DNA from: Chryseobacterium sp. MYb264
Lineage (GTDB): Bacteria; Bacteroidota; Bacteroidia; Flavobacteriales; Weeksellaceae
DNA length: 64,000 nt
Assembly: GCF_035974275.1 (NCBI RefSeq)
Contig: NZ_CP142422.1
Span: 1,054,001 to 1,118,000 of the forward strand
Direction: 5' to 3'
Shown: positions 43,831 through 55,138 of the stretch, one piece after another
How positions within the stretch are numbered: the first letter of the stretch is position 1
How the letters are laid out: each line of letters begins with the position of its first letter
The notes under the pieces: generated by a model
Told to the model about the DNA's origin: nothing
Database searches by the model: none
What the model saw: the letters and a program-made list of their open reading frames with translations, nothing else
Made by a program: the position numbers and the translations under genes

Positions 43831-44595
43831 TTATAAAAACATTCCGCCAGAAGCTTCAATTCTCTGTCCGTTGATCCAACGTGCATCTTCTGTACAAAGG
43901 AAAGCTACCACTCCACCGATGTCATCAGGAACGCCCACTCTTCCTAAAGCCGTATTTCCTGCAACCATCGCATTTACATGCTCATCATCTCTTGTTCTTC
44001 CGCCCCCGAAATCGGTTTCAATTGCTCCCGGCGCCACCACATTTGACTTGATTTTTCTCGCTCCCAATTCTTTTGCCTGATATTTCGTCAGCATGTCGAT
44101 CGCCGCTTTCATAGAACCGTAAACCGAAGATCCCGGAACTGCAAATCTTGCCAACCCTGAAGAAATGTTGATAATTCCTCCGTCGCTGTTGATGAAAGGT
44201 AAAAACTTCTGCGTTAAGAAAAATACCCCTTTGAAATGAATATCTACCATATCATCCAACTGTTCTTCCGTAACATCAGGAATTGGCGAATACAAAGCCG
44301 TTCCCGCGTTATTTACCAAGAAATCGATATTTCTGCTTCCCGTATTTTCTTCCAGATGATCTCCTACTGTTTTCACAAAAGCATCAAAACTTTTAAGATC
44401 TTTAGTATCTAACTGATATGCAATTGCTTTTTGTCCCAAAGCCTGAATTTCTTTTACCACTGCCTCAGCTTCTTCTTTATTGCTTCTGTAGGTGATGATA
44501 ATATCAAGCCCTTTTTGTGCCGTTTTAATAGCTGAATTTTTTCCTAAACCACGGCTTCCACCGGTTATTAATGCGATTTTTGTTCTTGTGCTCAT
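43831..44595 (-). CDS. short-chain dehydrogenase/reductase
   Basis: 254 aa classical SDR: TGGSRGLGKNSA (cofactor), NNAG (about 91-94), catalytic Ser/Tyr/Lys with YGSMKAA, and PGAIETDFGGG. The C-terminal INGQRIEASGGMFL ends as in 3-oxoacyl-ACP-reductase-like SDRs. Substrate unknown. The AraC gene at 44683 is just upstream on the same strand (87 bp), giving a second AraC/SDR pair in this window. Confidence 0.92.
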   Translation of the reverse strand: MSTRTKIALITGGSRGLGKNSAIKTAQKGLDIIITYRSNKEEAEAVVKEIQALGQKAIAYQLDTKDLKSFDAFVKTVGDHLEENTGSRNIDFLVNNAGTALYSPIPDVTEEQLDDMVDIHFKGVFFLTQKFLPFINSDGGIINISSGLARFAVPGSSVYGSMKAAIDMLTKYQAKELGARKIKSNVVAPGAIETDFGGGRTRDDEHVNAMVAGNTALGRVGVPDDIGGVVAFLCTEDARWINGQRIEASGGMFL

Positions 44596-44682
44596 TTTAT
44601 TATGTTATTTAATGATACAAAGTTGGCGTATTTTTGAAAGCAGATGTTTGCTTGAATCAATCTGAAATTTGCAAAATTCAAA

Positions 44683-45621
44683 TCAGGTGCGAAATTCTAA
44701 AGGCGTAATCGTTGTTTTCTTTTTAAAAAAGTTAGAAAAGTGCGCAATTTCTTCAAAACCTAGGGCGTAAGAAATCTCAGAAACCGTCCATTTTGTTTGT
44801 TTTAATAATATTTTTGCTTCCTGAATTAATCGATCAGCAATGAATTCGGTTGTGGTTTTTCCAGTGCTTTCTTTTAGTTTTTTATTTAAATAATTAACGT
44901 GAACAGCCAATCGATCGGCGTAATCCTTTGCTGTTTTCAATTGCAATCTCTGTTCTGAAGATTCTATAGGAAACTGCCTTTCCAATAATTCGATGAACAA
45001 AGAAACAACACGCAGCGAAGCGTCATTCGAGGTCGATAATTTCGAGGCAGGCTGTAATTTCTGACCATAATGAATAAGTTCAAGCACATAATTCCGAATC
45101 AAATCGTATTTAAAAATATAATCCGATTCTATTTCTTTTTTCATTTTAAAATACAACTGCTCGATCTCATCTGCCAGCTCATCATCAATTTCAAAAATCG
45201 GAACATTTCCCGGTTGAAAAATAGGTAAACTTTCGAGTGTGCTGTGAGACTTATCTTTAATGAAAAAATCTTCTGTAAACACGCAAAAACTCCCCGACTG
45301 ATTAGGATCTTCCGGAACCCAGTGATAAGGAACTTTCGGAGTCGCAAAAAGAAGGGCATTTTTCGTTATTGAAATCACTTTATCTGCATATTCTGCTCTG
45401 TTTCTGCCTCTTATTAAGCTTATCTTAAAATATCTTCTTCTGTTATAAGGCATTTCGGAAGTCATTCGTATTTTCTCAATCGTTTGAGCAATATCGAAAA
45501 CATTAAAATGCCCAATATCTTTATGAAGCCCTTTCGGAAAAATACTCTCCAGATCTTTTCCCAGCTTCGCCGTCATTTCCCGATAAAAATCTTCCAAAGA
45601 AGTATGAGCTATCTTTTCCAT
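44683..45621 (-). CDS. AraC-family transcriptional regulator
   Basis: 312 aa: N-terminal effector domain (YRREYFK-type start replaced by MPYNRRRYFKISLIRG...) and a C-terminal HTH pair (DYADRLAVHVNYLNKKLKE, then VSEISYALGFEEIAHFSNFFKK). Situated directly upstream of the SDR gene it probably controls. Ligand unknown. Confidence 0.92.
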   Translation of the reverse strand: MEKIAHTSLEDFYREMTAKLGKDLESIFPKGLHKDIGHFNVFDIAQTIEKIRMTSEMPYNRRRYFKISLIRGRNRAEYADKVISITKNALLFATPKVPYHWVPEDPNQSGSFCVFTEDFFIKDKSHSTLESLPIFQPGNVPIFEIDDELADEIEQLYFKMKKEIESDYIFKYDLIRNYVLELIHYGQKLQPASKLSTSNDASLRVVSLFIELLERQFPIESSEQRLQLKTAKDYADRLAVHVNYLNKKLKESTGKTTTEFIADRLIQEAKILLKQTKWTVSEISYALGFEEIAHFSNFFKKKTTITPLEFRT

Positions 45622-45740
45622 AATTGAACATTTGTAAAATTCAAATATACAAACTTATAGACACATGATAATAAATACATTATTTATTCTGACTATTGAA
45701 AATTTTTCTATAATTAGTGATTTACCATTAATATTTTTCT

Positions 45741-45748
45741 TATCTTAG
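45741..45748 (+). promoter_or_regulatory. -7-like element TATCTTAG of the peptide cluster
   Basis: TATCTTAG deviates from TAnnTTTG at one base, and lies 31 bp before the first peptide ATG. The identical octamer is at a near-identical distance upstream of the genes at 54366 and 54854. Confidence 0.5.
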
Positions 45749-45779
45749 TTTTAAGCTAAAATACTAAAAATCAAATACT

Positions 45780-45974
45780 ATGAAAGATTTACTTTTAACA
45801 AAAGGAAAGAAACTTAACAAAAAGCAATTGAAAACAATCGCTGGCGGATTATTAGACTGCATGCAGTCTGTAATCTGTACCGATCCACCATGTGAATTCT
45901 ATCCGCCAGATGATTACAGAGCCTGTACACAAATCTCAATAAGCTGTGCACAAAAGGTATGCAGACCACTTTAG
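45780..45974 (+). CDS. double-glycine-leader cysteine peptide 1
   Basis: 64 aa. Leader MKDLLLTKGKKLNKKQLKTIAGG ends in Gly-Gly, the classical cleavage site of peptidase-containing ABC exporters; the core LLDCMQSVICTDPPCEF... has six cysteines (27, 33, 38, 49, 56, 61), and its last three spacings (C-x6-C-x4-C) equal those of peptides 2-4. Probably a ribosomally made, exported bacteriocin-like or signalling peptide; no modifying enzyme is seen nearby. First of a four-gene tandem array. I do not recognise a named product. Confidence 0.8.
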   Translation: MKDLLLTKGKKLNKKQLKTIAGGLLDCMQSVICTDPPCEFYPPDDYRACTQISISCAQKVCRPL

Positions 45975-46012
45975 CAATTAAGATCAAACTAAATCATTAA
46001 AAATCAACAGTT

Positions 46013-46174
46013 ATGAAAAACCAAAATTTACAAAAAGGTAAAAAATTAAACAAAAAACAATTAAGAGTAATCTCAGGTGGACTTCAAATGTGCTACGACA
46101 AAGATTCAGGCGAATGTATCGCGTATGGAAAACGATGTGCAGAATTCCAATGTGTATACCCTATTTTACCATAA
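46013..46174 (+). CDS. double-glycine-leader cysteine peptide 2
   Basis: 53 aa, found by reading the sequence. Leader MKNQNLQKGKKLNKKQLRVISGG, core LQMCYDKDSGECIAYGKRC..., four cysteines at residues 27, 35, 42 and 47. It starts 38 bp after peptide 1 ends. Residues 6-23 are nearly those of peptide 1 and 3, showing recent tandem duplication. Ends VYPILP. Function unknown; bacteriocin-like by layout only. Confidence 0.85.
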   Translation: MKNQNLQKGKKLNKKQLRVISGGLQMCYDKDSGECIAYGKRCAEFQCVYPILP

Positions 46175-46200
46175 TTTAAATAAATCATAAAATTACAACT

Positions 46201-46347
46201 ATGAAAAATCAAAATTTACAAAAAGACAAAAAGCTTAACAAAAAAGAATTAAAAACCATCAAAGGCAGACTTCAGATGTGTTGGGATGCTTTTACAGGAG
46301 AATGTACCTCTTATGGCAGACAATGTGCCGAGGCTCAATGTAAATAG
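46201..46347 (+). CDS. cysteine peptide 3, 3' end altered by IS insertion
   Basis: 48 aa as it stands; leader MKNQNLQKDKKLNKKELKTIKGR with GR instead of GG at the cleavage site, core LQMCWDAFTGECTSYG... with cysteines again at 27, 35, 42, 47. The TAG stop straddles the edge of the IS (TA from the target, G from the IS). Without the IS, reading continues at 47820 for YSDPVFP then TAA at 47839-47841, giving 55 aa. So the gene is insertion-modified; loss of the seven-residue tail and the GR site both cast doubt on activity. Confidence 0.8.
   Translation: MKNQNLQKDKKLNKKELKTIKGRLQMCWDAFTGECTSYGRQCAEAQCK
46341..46346. repeat. 6-bp target-site duplication, left copy (TAAATA)
   Basis: TAAATA at the left edge of the IS; the same six bases follow its right end at 47814-47819. 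Confidence 0.8.
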
Positions 46348-47813
46348 TCGCTCCTTAAAAAGCTGTTTTTTGACTTTGAAAATTATATTTGCCTAAAAAG
46401 ATTCGGAGAACAAGTTCGAGCCAAAGAAGAATTTGTTGTTTGATTTGATTCAATCTCATCTTCAAATTGTATCCAATCCCTGCTAATAATGCATTATTAA
46501 TATCTCCAGCCACTCCTTTCAGGAAGTTTAATCCTAAGGAGTGGTTTCTTTTTAAATGAGAGATACAAGGTTCTATGGCTGCTCTTGCCCGGAATCTTAA
46601 TCTGGCTACTTGTTGCCCATATTTTGTTTTTTCTTTTTTTGCGGGAAGCAAAATTGCTGTTCCTTCCACTTCTTTGATTCCTTTAAATCCTCTGTCTGTA
46701 GTGGCTTTCGTAGGTCTTGTTCCGCCAACGGATTTTCTTACCCTCTCACTCTGTGCCAATGATTCTTCAAGAGTTTTACTATCGTGAGGATTGCCAGAAA
46801 ATCTCTTTACCGAGCTGATGATCCCTGTTTTCCGACCTCTTACTACTGCTACTTTTGTCCCAAACTCGTATGCTTTTCCCGATTTTCCTTTCGCAATACA
46901 CGCAACTTGTGGCTCGTGAAGACTGTAAATTTTATCTTTCGTGGTACGTTCTTGGGTGAGTGCTTTAAGGTAAATTTTAAAAACGTCTTCGTAGCCTTTC
47001 AAAACATCTTTAGGAAGTTTTCTTTCCAATTCCCGAAGAACTCTTTTACCAATCGTCCTGAGCTTTTTCCTCGCCATTTTTGCCTTCTTCTGTCTTCTGG
47101 GATGATGTCCAAAAAAAGCGTCCCGCAATAATTGTTTGCTCACTCTTCTGTAGCTTTGTCTTTGTACAACGCTCTCTTTTTCTGCTATTTTTCTACAATT
47201 GTCGATTACTTTTTTTGCTAATTTGGCATCGGTAGGAAAGGTAATGTTCTTCTCCTGAACCGTCGTATCTACCTGAACTTCATCTTCTGTTTTGGCTTTG
47301 GGATGGAGAGAAACGCTTTGTCCCAAAAGAAATTCCAAACCCTTATCTCCAATTCTTTTTCTGAAGTGTACAAAATTGCTCGGATCGAAAGGCTGCTCTG
47401 TCTGGAAAAAGGTTTCTCCGGTAAAATATTGCCAATACGCATTCTCAATCCATCTCTCTATTACACTTTCATCACTTTCTTTAAACATTTCCTTGAGCAA
47501 AAGCATTCCTGCTATTTTACGGATAGCAATAGAAGGTCTTCCGTTTTCTGAAAATAATTTCTCAAACTCTGACTCCATTTTATCCCAGGAAATCTCCCCA
47601 GCTAATTTTACCACCGGATGCTCCATATTAATAAGCTCCGTAAGCCTGGTCTTGAATAAATTCTGCTGTAAATCCTCTCTTATTTTGCCTAACATTTTGC
47701 CACTTTTTATATCCTAAAAATACAATTTATTGCAATTTTTTACAACGATTTTTTACGAAATATAAGTGCATAAAACTGATAATCAAAATATTACTTGGTT
47801 TTTAAGGAATGAC
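46347..47813 (-). mobile_element. IS5-type insertion sequence inside peptide gene 3, 1467 bp
   Basis: Imperfect terminal inverted repeats: left GTCGCTCCTTAAAAAGC (46347-46363) and right, read inward, GTCATTCCTTAAAAACC (47813-47797), 14 of 17 matching. One intact transposase gene. 6-bp target duplication. Its insertion separates peptide gene 4 from the promoter of genes 1-3. Confidence 0.88.
46355..47695 (-). CDS. IS5-family DDE transposase
   Basis: 446 aa. N-terminal DUF772 region (GRPSIAIRKIAGMLLLKEMFKESDESVIERWIENAYWQYFTG), then DDE core: Asp in VQVDTTVQEKN, Asp in ATTDRGFKG and Glu in AIEPCISHLKRNHSLGLNFLKG. Intact. The stop codon lies within the left terminal repeat. A 6-bp duplication is not one of the sizes I associate with main IS5 subgroups, so the family name rests on the protein. 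Confidence 0.9.
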   Translation of the reverse strand: MLGKIREDLQQNLFKTRLTELINMEHPVVKLAGEISWDKMESEFEKLFSENGRPSIAIRKIAGMLLLKEMFKESDESVIERWIENAYWQYFTGETFFQTEQPFDPSNFVHFRKRIGDKGLEFLLGQSVSLHPKAKTEDEVQVDTTVQEKNITFPTDAKLAKKVIDNCRKIAEKESVVQRQSYRRVSKQLLRDAFFGHHPRRQKKAKMARKKLRTIGKRVLRELERKLPKDVLKGYEDVFKIYLKALTQERTTKDKIYSLHEPQVACIAKGKSGKAYEFGTKVAVVRGRKTGIISSVKRFSGNPHDSKTLEESLAQSERVRKSVGGTRPTKATTDRGFKGIKEVEGTAILLPAKKEKTKYGQQVARLRFRARAAIEPCISHLKRNHSLGLNFLKGVAGDINNALLAGIGYNLKMRLNQIKQQILLWLELVLRIFLGKYNFQSQKTAF

Positions 47814-47819
47814 TAAATA
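47814..47819. repeat. 6-bp target-site duplication, right copy (TAAATA)
   Basis: Direct copy of 46341-46346; followed by the stranded last codons of peptide gene 3 (47820-47841). Confidence 0.8.
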
Positions 47820-47890
47820 TTCTGATCCAGTTTTTCCTTAATAACTCGGATTTTAAACAACAAAATTAATAATTCACAAAATCAAAAAAC

Positions 47891-48058
47891 ATGAAAAATC
47901 ACAACTTACCACAAGGCAAAAAGCTTAACAAAAAAGAATTAAGAGTTATTACCGGAGGCTTGAGAGACTGTATCGATCCTCAAACCGGCGGATGTAAAAT
48001 TATCTCGATCGGATGCGCACAATTGGAATGCAGGCCACAAATAAACCCTATCGAGTAA
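47891..48058 (+). CDS. double-glycine-leader cysteine peptide 4
   Basis: 55 aa. Leader MKNHNLPQGKKLNKKELRVITGG, core LRDCIDPQTGGCKIISIGC..., cysteines at 27, 35, 42, 47 as in peptides 2 and 3; tail RPQINPIE. Before the IS arrived it would have begun 49 bp after the end of peptide 3 and so was last in the four-gene unit. Now it depends on read-through from the IS or its own promoter; I see none that is convincing. Confidence 0.82.
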   Translation: MKNHNLPQGKKLNKKELRVITGGLRDCIDPQTGGCKIISIGCAQLECRPQINPIE

Positions 48059-48081
48059 TAATATTAAAAAAAAAAAAAAAG

Positions 48082-48115
48082 AATACCATTCATTAACCCT
48101 AATGGTATTTTTTAA
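48082..48115 (+). terminator. terminator of the peptide array
   Basis: AATACCATT...AATGGTATT stem then TTTTT. It is preceded by a run of 15 A residues (48066-48080). Confidence 0.8.
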
Positions 48116-48117
48116 GC

Positions 48118-48152
48118 AAAAAACGCTCCCAAAATACATCGGAAGCGTTTTT
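48118..48152 (-). terminator. terminator of ychF
   Basis: AAAACGCTCCC...GGAAGCGTTTTT stem; T run on the minus strand. Lies back to back with the peptide-array terminator. Confidence 0.75.
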
Positions 48153-48177
48153 CATTTATAACTAACTTTAATATTTC

Positions 48178-49269
48178 TTATACGTTGAATCTAAAGTGCA
48201 TGATGTCGCCATCTTTCACGATATATTCTTTACCTTCTACAGAAAGTTTTCCTGCTTCTTTGATCTTTACTTCAGAACCATACGTCATATAATCATCAAA
48301 CTTGATAACTTCTGCACGAATGAACCCTTTTTCAAAATCTGTGTGGATTACTCCAGCAGCCTGAGGCGCCGTCCAACCTTGTCCGATTGTCCAAGCTCTC
48401 ACTTCTTTAACACCAGCTGTAAAATACGTCTGAAGCTTCAATAAATCGTAAGCCTTTCTGATCAAACGGTTTACACCCGGCTCCGTAAGACCAAGCTCTT
48501 CAAGGAAAATTTCTCTTTCTTCGAAAGTTTCAAGTTCGTTGATATCGGCTTCAATCTGAGCAGCTAAAACGACCACTTCAGCGCCTTCACCTTTTGCCAT
48601 TTCCTCGATCTTCCCGATCCATTCGTTTCCGTTTTTAATTGAATTTTCATCCACATTACAAACGTAAAGAACAGGCTTATTTGTCAGCAACTGAACTTCT
48701 CCTATTACAGATTTAGCAAAATCATCCGTTGCGAATTCTCTAGCATTTTTACCATCTTCTAAGAATTTCTGAAGATTCTGAAGCGTTTCATACGTCAAAA
48801 TATCTTCTTTTTTTCCGGATTTGATGAACTTTTTCGCTTTCTCCACTGCTTTTCCAACAGTTTCCAAATCTTTTAATTGAAGTTCAATATCAATAATTTC
48901 TTTATCTCTTAAAGGATCTACCGAACCTTCTACGTGAATGATATTTCCGTTATCAAAACATCTCAAAACATGGATAATAGCCTCACACTCACGGATGTTA
49001 GCAAGAAACTGATTTCCTAAACCTTCTCCTTTGCTCGCTCCTTTTACAAGACCCGCAATATCTACGATCTCTACAACCGCCGGCAAAACTCTCTCCGGTT
49101 TTACTAATTTTTCCAGTTCAAACAATCTGTGATCCGGTACAGAAACTGTTCCCAAATTCGGCTCGATTGTACAGAAAGGATAATTGGCTGACTGAGCTTT
49201 TGCGTTGCTCAAACAGTTAAAAAGAGTTGATTTACCTACATTTGGTAAGCCTACGATTCCACATTTCAT
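48178..49269 (-). CDS. ychF: redox-regulated ATPase YchF
   Basis: 363 aa Obg-related P-loop protein that hydrolyses ATP and associates with ribosomes. Walker A GLPNVGKST, switch CTIEPNLG, G3 DIAGLVKGASKGEGLGNQFL and C-terminal TGS domain (TYFTAGVKEVRAWTIGQGWTAPQAAGVIHTDFEKGFIRAEV). Length and motifs are canonical. Confidence 0.96.
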   Translation of the reverse strand: MKCGIVGLPNVGKSTLFNCLSNAKAQSANYPFCTIEPNLGTVSVPDHRLFELEKLVKPERVLPAVVEIVDIAGLVKGASKGEGLGNQFLANIRECEAIIHVLRCFDNGNIIHVEGSVDPLRDKEIIDIELQLKDLETVGKAVEKAKKFIKSGKKEDILTYETLQNLQKFLEDGKNAREFATDDFAKSVIGEVQLLTNKPVLYVCNVDENSIKNGNEWIGKIEEMAKGEGAEVVVLAAQIEADINELETFEEREIFLEELGLTEPGVNRLIRKAYDLLKLQTYFTAGVKEVRAWTIGQGWTAPQAAGVIHTDFEKGFIRAEVIKFDDYMTYGSEVKIKEAGKLSVEGKEYIVKDGDIMHFRFNV

Positions 49270-51268: not shown

Positions 51269-51439
51269 ATGAAAAATGTAAAAAAACTCAACAGAAACGA
51301 AATGAAAACAGTTTCAGGAAACGGATTATTAGATCCTGTCTGCAAACTTCTTTGCTCTTTGGCAGATTCCGGGCTGCTGAATCTCACCGATATTCAGTCA
51401 TTTTTATGTCCGGATTTAGATTGTGCAAACGCTAATTAA
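51269..51439 (+). CDS. GNG-leader cysteine peptide (short relative of the Gly-repeat peptides)
   Basis: 56 aa. The first 22 residues, MKNVKKLNRNEMKTVSGNGLLD, match the leaders of the Gly-repeat peptides at 54366 and 54854 almost residue for residue. The core has four cysteines (25, 29, 47, 52: C-x3-C-x17-C-x4-C) and no Gly repeat. By layout an exported bacteriocin-like peptide whose GG-type site is GNG. Stands alone, between repeats and a terminator. No family name recognised. Confidence 0.75.
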   Translation: MKNVKKLNRNEMKTVSGNGLLDPVCKLLCSLADSGLLNLTDIQSFLCPDLDCANAN

Positions 51440-54365: not shown

Positions 54366-54650
54366 TTAGCAAGAAGCGTTACAATTCAAAAGCTTGATTT
54401 GGATGACTCCGTTTACGACACACTGTACATTACACAATGTTCCTTCCAATACGCCGCCAACACCCGTTACAACACCGCCTACAGTACCTACAACACCTCC
54501 TACAAGGTCGCCAACAACACCACCAACTCCTCCGATAGCGCCGCCCACGGCACCACCGATACCGCCTATAAGCCCTCCAAGACCGTCAAGCAGACCATCT
54601 CCAGTAATTGTTTTTAGCTCATTTCTGTCTAGTTTTTTGAAATTTTTCAT
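54366..54650 (-). CDS. Gly-Gly-repeat cysteine peptide A
   Basis: 94 aa. Leader MKNFKKLDRNELKTITGDGLLD; then about 45 residues of (G-G-hydrophobic-hydrophobic)n, such as GGLIGGIGGAVGGAIGG; then a C-terminal module with cysteines at 73, 77, 90 and 94 (C-x3-C-x12-C-x3-C). The repeat is glycine-zipper-like, compatible with membrane insertion, but that is inference. A tandem duplicate lies at 54854, with matching length, promoter and cysteine positions. A long plus-strand Pro/Thr frame over it is a shadow. Confidence 0.82.
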   Translation of the reverse strand: MKNFKKLDRNELKTITGDGLLDGLGGLIGGIGGAVGGAIGGVGGVVGDLVGGVVGTVGGVVTGVGGVLEGTLCNVQCVVNGVIQIKLLNCNASC

Positions 54651-54853: not shown

Positions 54854-55138
54854 TTAGCAAGCAGAGCCGCAAGAAAGAAGTTTAATTTGAACTACTCCTC
54901 CTACAACGCACTGTACCTGGCAAAGTGTACCTTCTACTACTGTACCTACCCCTCCAACGGCACCACCTACAGCACCTACTACACCGCCGACAGCACCGCC
55001 AACTACACCTACTACTCCACCTACGGCACCGCCGATAGCCCCTACAAGACCACCAACTAAACCACCGATTGGATCAAGTAATCCGTTTCCTGAAATAGTT
55101 TTCAACTCATTTCTGTCTAATTTTTTGAAGTTTTTCAT
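54854..55138 (-). CDS. Gly-Gly-repeat cysteine peptide B
   Basis: 94 aa, same length as peptide A. Leader MKNFKKLDRNELKTISGNGLLD, then GGLVGGLVGAIGGAVGG-type repeats and cysteines again at 73, 77, 90 and 94. The ends are close to peptide A (TLCxVQCVVxGVxQIKLL), while the repeat part has drifted, as expected if selection acts on the leader and Cys module more than on the repeat. No maturation or export gene is adjacent. The RND operon at 55442 is near but reads as a general efflux system. Confidence 0.82.
   Translation of the reverse strand: MKNFKKLDRNELKTISGNGLLDPIGGLVGGLVGAIGGAVGGVVGVVGGAVGGVVGAVGGAVGGVGTVVEGTLCQVQCVVGGVVQIKLLSCGSAC

Follow-up and report, generated by a model that had tools for sequence, protein, structure and literature searches.

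An array of double-glycine leader peptide genes in Chryseobacterium that probably encodes secreted, disulfide-folded peptides

Chryseobacterium sp. MYb264 carries four short open reading frames (ORFs) in tandem, each beginning with a leader of the double-glycine (GG) type and continuing into a cysteine-rich core. They lie in a stretch of 64,000 nucleotides (contig NZ_CP142422.1, positions 1,054,001 to 1,118,000), which was analysed as a whole and is called the window below. A first-pass annotation, made from the letters alone, had placed four tandem leader-peptide genes at window positions 45780-48058, and their coordinates, plus strand and ATG starts are confirmed here (Table 1). The array is genuine, occurs widely across the genus and evolves under selection. 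It is flanked by a divergently oriented AraC-family regulator gene and, on the other side, by a conserved gene for a YchF-type GTPase, a core neighbour that stands outside the system; both identities were confirmed by Pfam. Besides the peptides and an insertion sequence (IS), no convincing further ORF was found in the array interval.

Table 1 Features of the array, its flanks and related loci. Positions refer to the window, except for the exporter.
Feature	Position	Strand	Remarks
AraC-family regulator	44683..45621	-	divergent from the array
AraC-peptide 1 intergenic region	45622..45779	+	promoter-like box TA..TT.G (TATCTTAG in the window)
Peptide 1 precursor	45780..45974	+	64 aa, ATG start; core with six Cys
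Peptide 2 precursor	46013..46174	+	53 aa, ATG start; leader end GG; four Cys
Peptide 3 precursor	46201..46347	+	48 aa, ATG start; leader end GR; damaged copy
IS5-family insertion sequence	about 46347..47813	.	divides the array; TAAATA on either side
IS5-family transposase	46355..47695	-	446 aa; NF033578, 410.8 bits against a cut-off of 275
Peptide 4 precursor	47891..48058	+	55 aa, ATG start; leader end GG; four Cys
YchF-type GTPase	48178..49269	-	conserved other flank
Further GG-leader-type peptide	51269..51439	+	56 aa, four Cys, leader end GN; unrelated core; over NF047798 cut-off
Further GG-leader-type peptide	54366..54650	-	94 aa; glycine/valine-rich core, four C-terminal Cys
Further GG-leader-type peptide	54854..55138	-	94 aa; paralogue of 54366..54650
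C39-ABC exporter	G000:C1:4191409-4193601		C39 and ABC domains; HlyD adaptor adjoining

The leader of peptide 1 comprises residues 1-23 (KKLNKKQLKTIAGG) and is followed by cysteines at 27, 33, 38, 49, 56 and 61 (C-x5-C-x4-C-x10-C-x6-C-x4-C). In peptides 2-4 the cysteines stand at 27, 35, 42 and 47 (C-x7-C-x6-C-x4-C), as had been annotated; it was also correct that peptide 1 keeps the final C-x6-C-x4-C, and relative to the other three it has an insert carrying two additional cysteines. Alignment of the four precursors gives 18 invariant columns, mainly in the leader and at the cysteines. Behind the 23-aa leader the cores of peptides 1-4 measure 41, 30, 25 and 32 aa, with charges of -2, -1, -1 and -1. 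Gaps of 26-49 bp had been claimed, and we find 38 bp between peptides 1 and 2 and 26 bp between peptides 2 and 3; the third gap presupposes that peptide 3 is read across the IS. Substrates of C39 peptidases carry a double-glycine leader with L at -12, L at -7, I or V at -4, G at -2 and G, A or S at -1. Peptides 1, 2 and 4 conform to this pattern, and it is for these that the annotated GG ending holds; the leader of peptide 3 ends in ..IKGR, with R at -1.

The stop codon of peptide 3 arises at the IS junction (t46345 and a46346 from the flank, g46347 as the first base of the element), so the present C-terminus is not the original one. In the host strain peptide 3 is probably best regarded as a damaged copy whose function is lost; intact relatives exist. 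A genome search with the IS5-family element listed 42 full-length matches whose identity rounds to 100%; since 40 of 117 candidate places were scored, the true number is at least this high. Two other copies that were compared match the window element at 99.9%. Because the genome holds so many near-identical copies, the insertion into the array is probably recent, and the element has probably gone through a recent burst in this chromosome. Two pairs of its copies lie 6 bp apart in the chromosome. The whole array might be a decaying relic in this strain, a view to which the loss of both GG and native stop codon in peptide 3 lends something, but we think it improbable: peptides 1, 2 and 4 are intact, peptide 4 is close to the family consensus, and the box upstream of peptide 1 is retained. 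In an alignment of the 51 upstream regions shorter than 260 bp, this box (TA..TT.G) reaches a conservation of at least 90%, and except for one base it fits the Bacteroidetes -7 element, TAnnTTTG. It is the one hint that the array is transcribed. Scans with a sigma-70 model (13 promoter-like sites against 8.0 expected) and for terminators (2 against 1.4 expected) are uninformative for this phylum, and a structured RNA search of 44500-48600 returned nothing over the gathering score.

A profile of the four peptides matched 49 public-database proteins, two of them the window's own and several named bacteriocin; all organism-named matches are from Chryseobacterium. Many of these proteins bear names given by their source, such as 'bacteriocin', so genes of this size (48-64 aa) do not systematically escape gene callers, contrary to the earlier suggestion that they are easily missed. 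Within the genus a family match is found in 133 of 173 genomes with profile A1, the figure used here; profile A2 gives 145, the extra ones often weak. In a family-level search with A2, matches occurred in 149 of 320 genomes and were limited to 2 of 33 genera. A collection of named genomes provided 72 loci, all titled Chryseobacterium save one 'Weeksellaceae' metagenome-assembled genome, and together with the window these contain 271 ORFs of the family. Most of the 267 ORFs in the 72 loci lie between the AraC gene and ychF (219), with 44 at an upstream aminotransferase-SDR gene site and 4 elsewhere. The AraC-ychF interval holds at least one family ORF, and between one and six, in 70 of the 72 named loci, and neighbouring family ORFs are a median of 37 bp apart (n = 172). 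Relatives in 133 of 173 genomes with synteny are more than chance.

Genomes without the peptides allow the site to be separated from its contents. Of the 40 peptide-less genomes, 32 have an AraC orthologue (77-91% identity). Twenty-nine of these loci were fetched: the SDR-AraC pair is retained in every one and ychF can be seen in 28, and scanning them with a peptide pattern gave no cysteine-rich GG-leader peptide, with three spurious ORFs only. Since peptide-less loci keep their flanks, the array is a cassette that comes and goes at one constant site. The AraC gene is part of this site and not of the array, and its candidacy as a dedicated array regulator is weakened by its presence in those 32 genomes. 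In some species four opposite-strand ORFs stand between the AraC gene and the array (L094 1738-5331, L124, L131, L115). A second genus (L181, L182, L183, L184) has two or three tandem six-cysteine relatives among other flanking genes, followed by a different six-cysteine peptide with a CC pair. Peptides 1, 2 and 4 and the AraC protein had no match in a defence-system search.

The number of cysteines per core is even throughout the parsed family. A strict leader pattern parsed 245 of the 271 ORFs (leader ends 242 GG, 2 AG and 1 GR, the last being peptide 3), yielding 221 distinct cores, of which 120 have four cysteines, 84 six, 17 eight and none an odd number. With a looser pattern 264 ORFs gave 239 distinct cores (135 four-, 86 six- and 18 eight-cysteine), again without an odd count. 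The annotation had recommended a search for homologues with the C-x7-C-x6-C-x4-C spacing, and this proved to be the commonest of all, in 82 of the 221 distinct strict cores; every one of the 221 except one eight-cysteine core ends in the x6, x4 spacing. By eye, 16 of the 18 eight-cysteine cores are two consecutive four-cysteine modules. A gain of cysteines in pairs is expected if they form disulfides. The commonest core has the sequence C-x-D-P-x-T-G-x-C-x3-[GS]-x2-C-A-[EQ]-x-[QE]-C (84 sequences). Comparisons with known folds gave little: Pfam over 52 cores returned five weak one-member matches and no fitting family, sequence matches in the PDB were short (best E 0.005 over 8 residues), and Foldseek found no PDB match for a model of the peptide 4 core. 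AlphaFold2 modelled that core with a best predicted local distance difference test (pLDDT) score of 88.9, the other four models ranging from 55 to 87, and a predicted template modelling (pTM) score of 0.45; we give this model no weight as evidence.

Leaders and cores are both under purifying selection, which is strong evidence of coding function. Pooled over 152 nearest pairs from different loci with 70-99.5% identical DNA and the same cysteine spacing, the ratio of nonsynonymous to synonymous differences (pN/pS) is 0.18 for leaders (bootstrap 0.16-0.20) and 0.14 for cores (0.12-0.16). The value for cores argues against the leader and the cysteines alone being what matters. The first-pass annotation had described drift in all other residues, and this stands between paralogues in an array, which diverge, but not between species, where the cores of near relatives are conserved. 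Arms-race diversification, which we also considered, is unsupported at a core pN/pS of 0.14.

An exporter of the C39-peptidase ABC type had been named as something to look for elsewhere in the genome, and there are three, together with one ORF that has a C39 domain only. One of them (Table 1) lies about 3 Mb from the array along the contig, or about 2 Mb the other way if the contig is circular, and, as judged by eye, carries Q, C, H and D in the positions typical of a catalytic C39 domain. Its locus also carries a GG-leader-type peptide with six cysteines. Beside it is encoded a 502-aa protein with VKOR and thioredoxin (Thioredoxin_4) domains, which contains CRVC, CGFC and two further cysteines. 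Across the genus the exporter is 89-93% identical among the matches listed, and 162 of 173 genomes have a match to the VKOR-thioredoxin oxidase. We looked at 21 exporter-oxidase loci, the host's own and 20 chosen by hand, not at random, from listed coordinates; GG-leader-type peptides are encoded within 2.5 kb in every one of them. The operon strand has 75 distinct peptides, of which 58 contain six cysteines and 17 four; the opposite strand has a single one, with five. Genome G001 has a relative of the array family (E 1.2e-10) together with two other GG peptides at most 0.8 kb upstream of the VKOR gene on the same strand. Given homologues with the same spacing and a C39 exporter whose locus holds a cysteine-rich GG-leader peptide, the annotation's view of ribosomally made, processed peptides is well supported at the level of sequence.

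The array may be connected to this exporter through its leaders. A hidden Markov model (HMM) of the leader, built solely from the 75 exporter-locus peptides, was run on 324 window ORFs with ATG starts; seven ORFs fall below E 0.002 and the next stands at 0.57. The seven are the four array ORFs and the peptides at 51269, 54366 and 54854. The first of these three lies about 3 kb from the array.

We propose that the products of the array are precursors of disulfide-folded peptides that are secreted through the C39-ABC/HlyD machine with its VKOR-thioredoxin oxidase, and consider this likely. The 23-residue leader (L-12, L-7, I-4, G-2, G-1) would guide each precursor to the exporter and its HlyD-type adaptor, the C39 peptidase would cleave after GG, and the VKOR-thioredoxin protein would oxidise the core outside the cytoplasm, giving two disulfides in four-cysteine, three in six-cysteine and four in eight-cysteine peptides. 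Handling by this particular exporter, disulfide formation and exit from the cell are predictions from sequence. The exporter-oxidase pair would serve as the common exit route for many cysteine-rich GG-leader peptides whose genes are dispersed on the chromosome, with the AraC-ychF interval as one site where such peptides would be gained and lost.

Several observations weigh against this proposal. The exporter is unlinked to the array in the host genome, and either of the other two C39-ABC exporters may be the carrier of the array peptides. The array leaders score 13-15 bits with the leader HMM, against 25-31 for the three other window peptides, and are longer than the exporter-locus leaders. 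Counts of cysteine parity are not independent, owing to shared descent, and among the seven ORFs left unparsed by the looser pattern, two that lack a full leader (L092 and L107) have five cysteines. The family occurs in 132 of the 162 genomes with the oxidase and in 1 of the 11 without it (Fisher 1.5e-6), which leaves 30 oxidase-bearing genomes without a family match. Moreover, in a tree of 58 AraC proteins, which covers 29 peptide-bearing genomes and six of the 11 oxidase-less ones, the six all fall inside peptide-less branches. We therefore do not count the co-occurrence as independent evidence, because it is phylogenetically confounded, and it was set aside as proof of function.

The neighbourhoods of the other two exporters raise the possibility that the array peptides are modified instead, as lanthionine peptides, sactipeptides or graspetides, by enzymes encoded elsewhere. 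One of these exporters lies in a lanthionine dehydratase (LanB-type) region and the other beside a radical-SAM/SPASM gene; a leader-pattern scan of the two regions (L141, L142) found no precursor. TIGR04149, a model of radical-SAM target leaders, matches 30 of 51 family members if E values up to 1 are admitted, but peptide 4 scores 13.4 against a cut-off of 25 and peptides 1-3 give no match. Graspetides are known from Chryseobacterium itself: PMC8939145 describes chryseoviridin, which like the array has several tandem precursors in the same genus and for which C39-type cleavage is discussed, but which is modified by an ATP-grasp enzyme, whereas no modifying enzyme is seen beside the array in the window. 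No radical-SAM gene occurs among the adjacent genes scanned, and no modifying enzyme was recognised by eye in the intervals of ten relatives. Even cysteine counts in all parsed cores suit disulfides, and the exporter locus that matches by leader carries an oxidase. Modification of this kind is, in our judgement, improbable.

Disulfide-folded export by the C39-ABC machine leaves the role of the peptides to be considered. By default one would guess that they antagonise other bacteria, which we hold at slightly under even odds, and we put at about the same level the specific view that they are ordinary class II bacteriocins, acting at short range against relatives and using the same export route. 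Class II bacteriocins typically have cationic cores, and a linked immunity gene is expected. Neither the window nor the family cores are cationic: the median charge is -1 for the 135 four-cysteine, -2 for the 86 six-cysteine and -1 for the eight-cysteine cores, and 2% of the four-cysteine cores reach +2 or more. No linked immunity gene is seen in the array interval, although an unlinked one may exist. A lipoprotein-like gene was rejected for this role because it does not track the peptides: 18 of 29 loci without them have it, as do 21 of 72 loci with them. Where it occurs between the array and ychF it encodes about 360-370 aa (L098 6217-7335, L109 8071-9147, L123 6504-7628, L106 9265-10344). 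Strong purifying selection between species, not diversification, also speaks against an ordinary bacteriocin. In favour are the database names and the TIGR01847 bacteriocin_sig model, which scores the four window leaders at 12.8-15.4, a little below its cut-off of 15.7, and matches 46 of 51 family members with E values of no more than 1. A close described parallel is formed by the bacteroidetocins (class IIf), four-cysteine GG-leader bacteriocins of Bacteroidetes with proven killing; they combine the same three parts, namely four-cysteine GG peptides, a C39-type ABC protein and a thiol oxidoreductase, in a Bacteroidota host (PMC6671954). They differ in having a four-gene locus with one peptide, a leader of 15-16 aa and a mature peptide of 42 aa (PMC6671954), whereas the array has a 23-aa leader, cores of 25-41 aa, several peptides and a VKOR-thioredoxin fusion; the two are likened by description, not by sequence. 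A single region with peptide, transmembrane protein, thiol oxidoreductase and C39-type ABC gene is absent at the array, and exporter and VKOR-thioredoxin gene stand together elsewhere. Antibacterial action is plausible, with acidic cores, no linked immunity gene and conservative selection on the other side.

A non-killing role, as signals (pheromones) or in action on a eukaryotic host or on proteases, is somewhat less likely in our view than a bacteriocin. It would agree with the wide presence in the genus under purifying selection on the cores, with their acidity and with the lack of an immunity gene in the interval. There is also a precedent, although from another phylum and with linked transporter and lipoprotein genes: PMC11879956 describes clustered Treponema denticola proteins with a bacteriocin-type signal domain, encoded like the array by tandem GG-signal genes that are thought to be duplicated, which are secreted and in which no bactericidal activity was detected. 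However, no receptor or two-component gene is seen beside the array in the window, and several different cores per array would be unusual for a pheromone.

Some of this was known before. The leader type is recognised and flagged 'bacteriocin-like' by NCBI, and the array is a variant of double-glycine peptides. The relevant model, NF047798 (leader_Chryseo, 'bacteriocin-like protein'), describes the same lysine-rich L..I.GG type of leader over 18 residues and is silent on cores, cysteine parity, exporter and oxidase. The exporter-linked peptide passes its cut-off of 23.5, as do the leaders of both 94-aa peptides in the window, whereas array peptides 1-4 stay below it at 18.5, no match, 17.0 and 12.7. 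Among the open-licence papers listed by our searches, none was recognised as a description of the array, the exporter-oxidase pair or the wider repertoire in Chryseobacterium.

That repertoire is considerable. NF047798 marks 29 places in the host genome at E up to 1, 17 of them over the cut-off, from which 27 distinct peptides were parsed, three of them from the array. Their cysteine counts are even in 26 of 27: two (1 peptide), four (10), six (14) and eight (1), with five in the remaining one. Three neighbouring GG-leader-type peptides at G000:C1:4914012-4914381 (L017) show a cystine-knot-like spacing, C-C-CC-C-C. Among 76 exporter-linked peptides from other genomes, 7 fit this spacing as well, and shuffled-core controls gave mean matches of 0.05 and 0.17. 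Chryseobacterium might possess a genus-wide, venom-like repertoire of disulfide-rich secreted peptides, with tens of small scaffolds per genome, mainly of four, six and eight cysteines and some of them spaced like cystine knots, in which arrays come and go at fixed sites and all peptides leave via one conserved C39-ABC exporter and VKOR-thioredoxin pair. The AraC-ychF array would be one module of it. We give this an even chance, and the role of such a repertoire need not be killing bacteria.

In the sources searched, the only traces of this peptide class are a leader model and protein names of the 'bacteriocin' kind. If our proposal is true, a common genus sends many unrelated disulfide peptides through one shared line of secretion and oxidation, and many of the cargo genes lie apart from it, so that mining for genes adjacent to exporters would miss them. 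It would also provide enzymes of natural bacterial origin for the production of cysteine-rich peptides, and deletion of one gene, for the exporter or the VKOR protein, could reveal the function of the whole repertoire.

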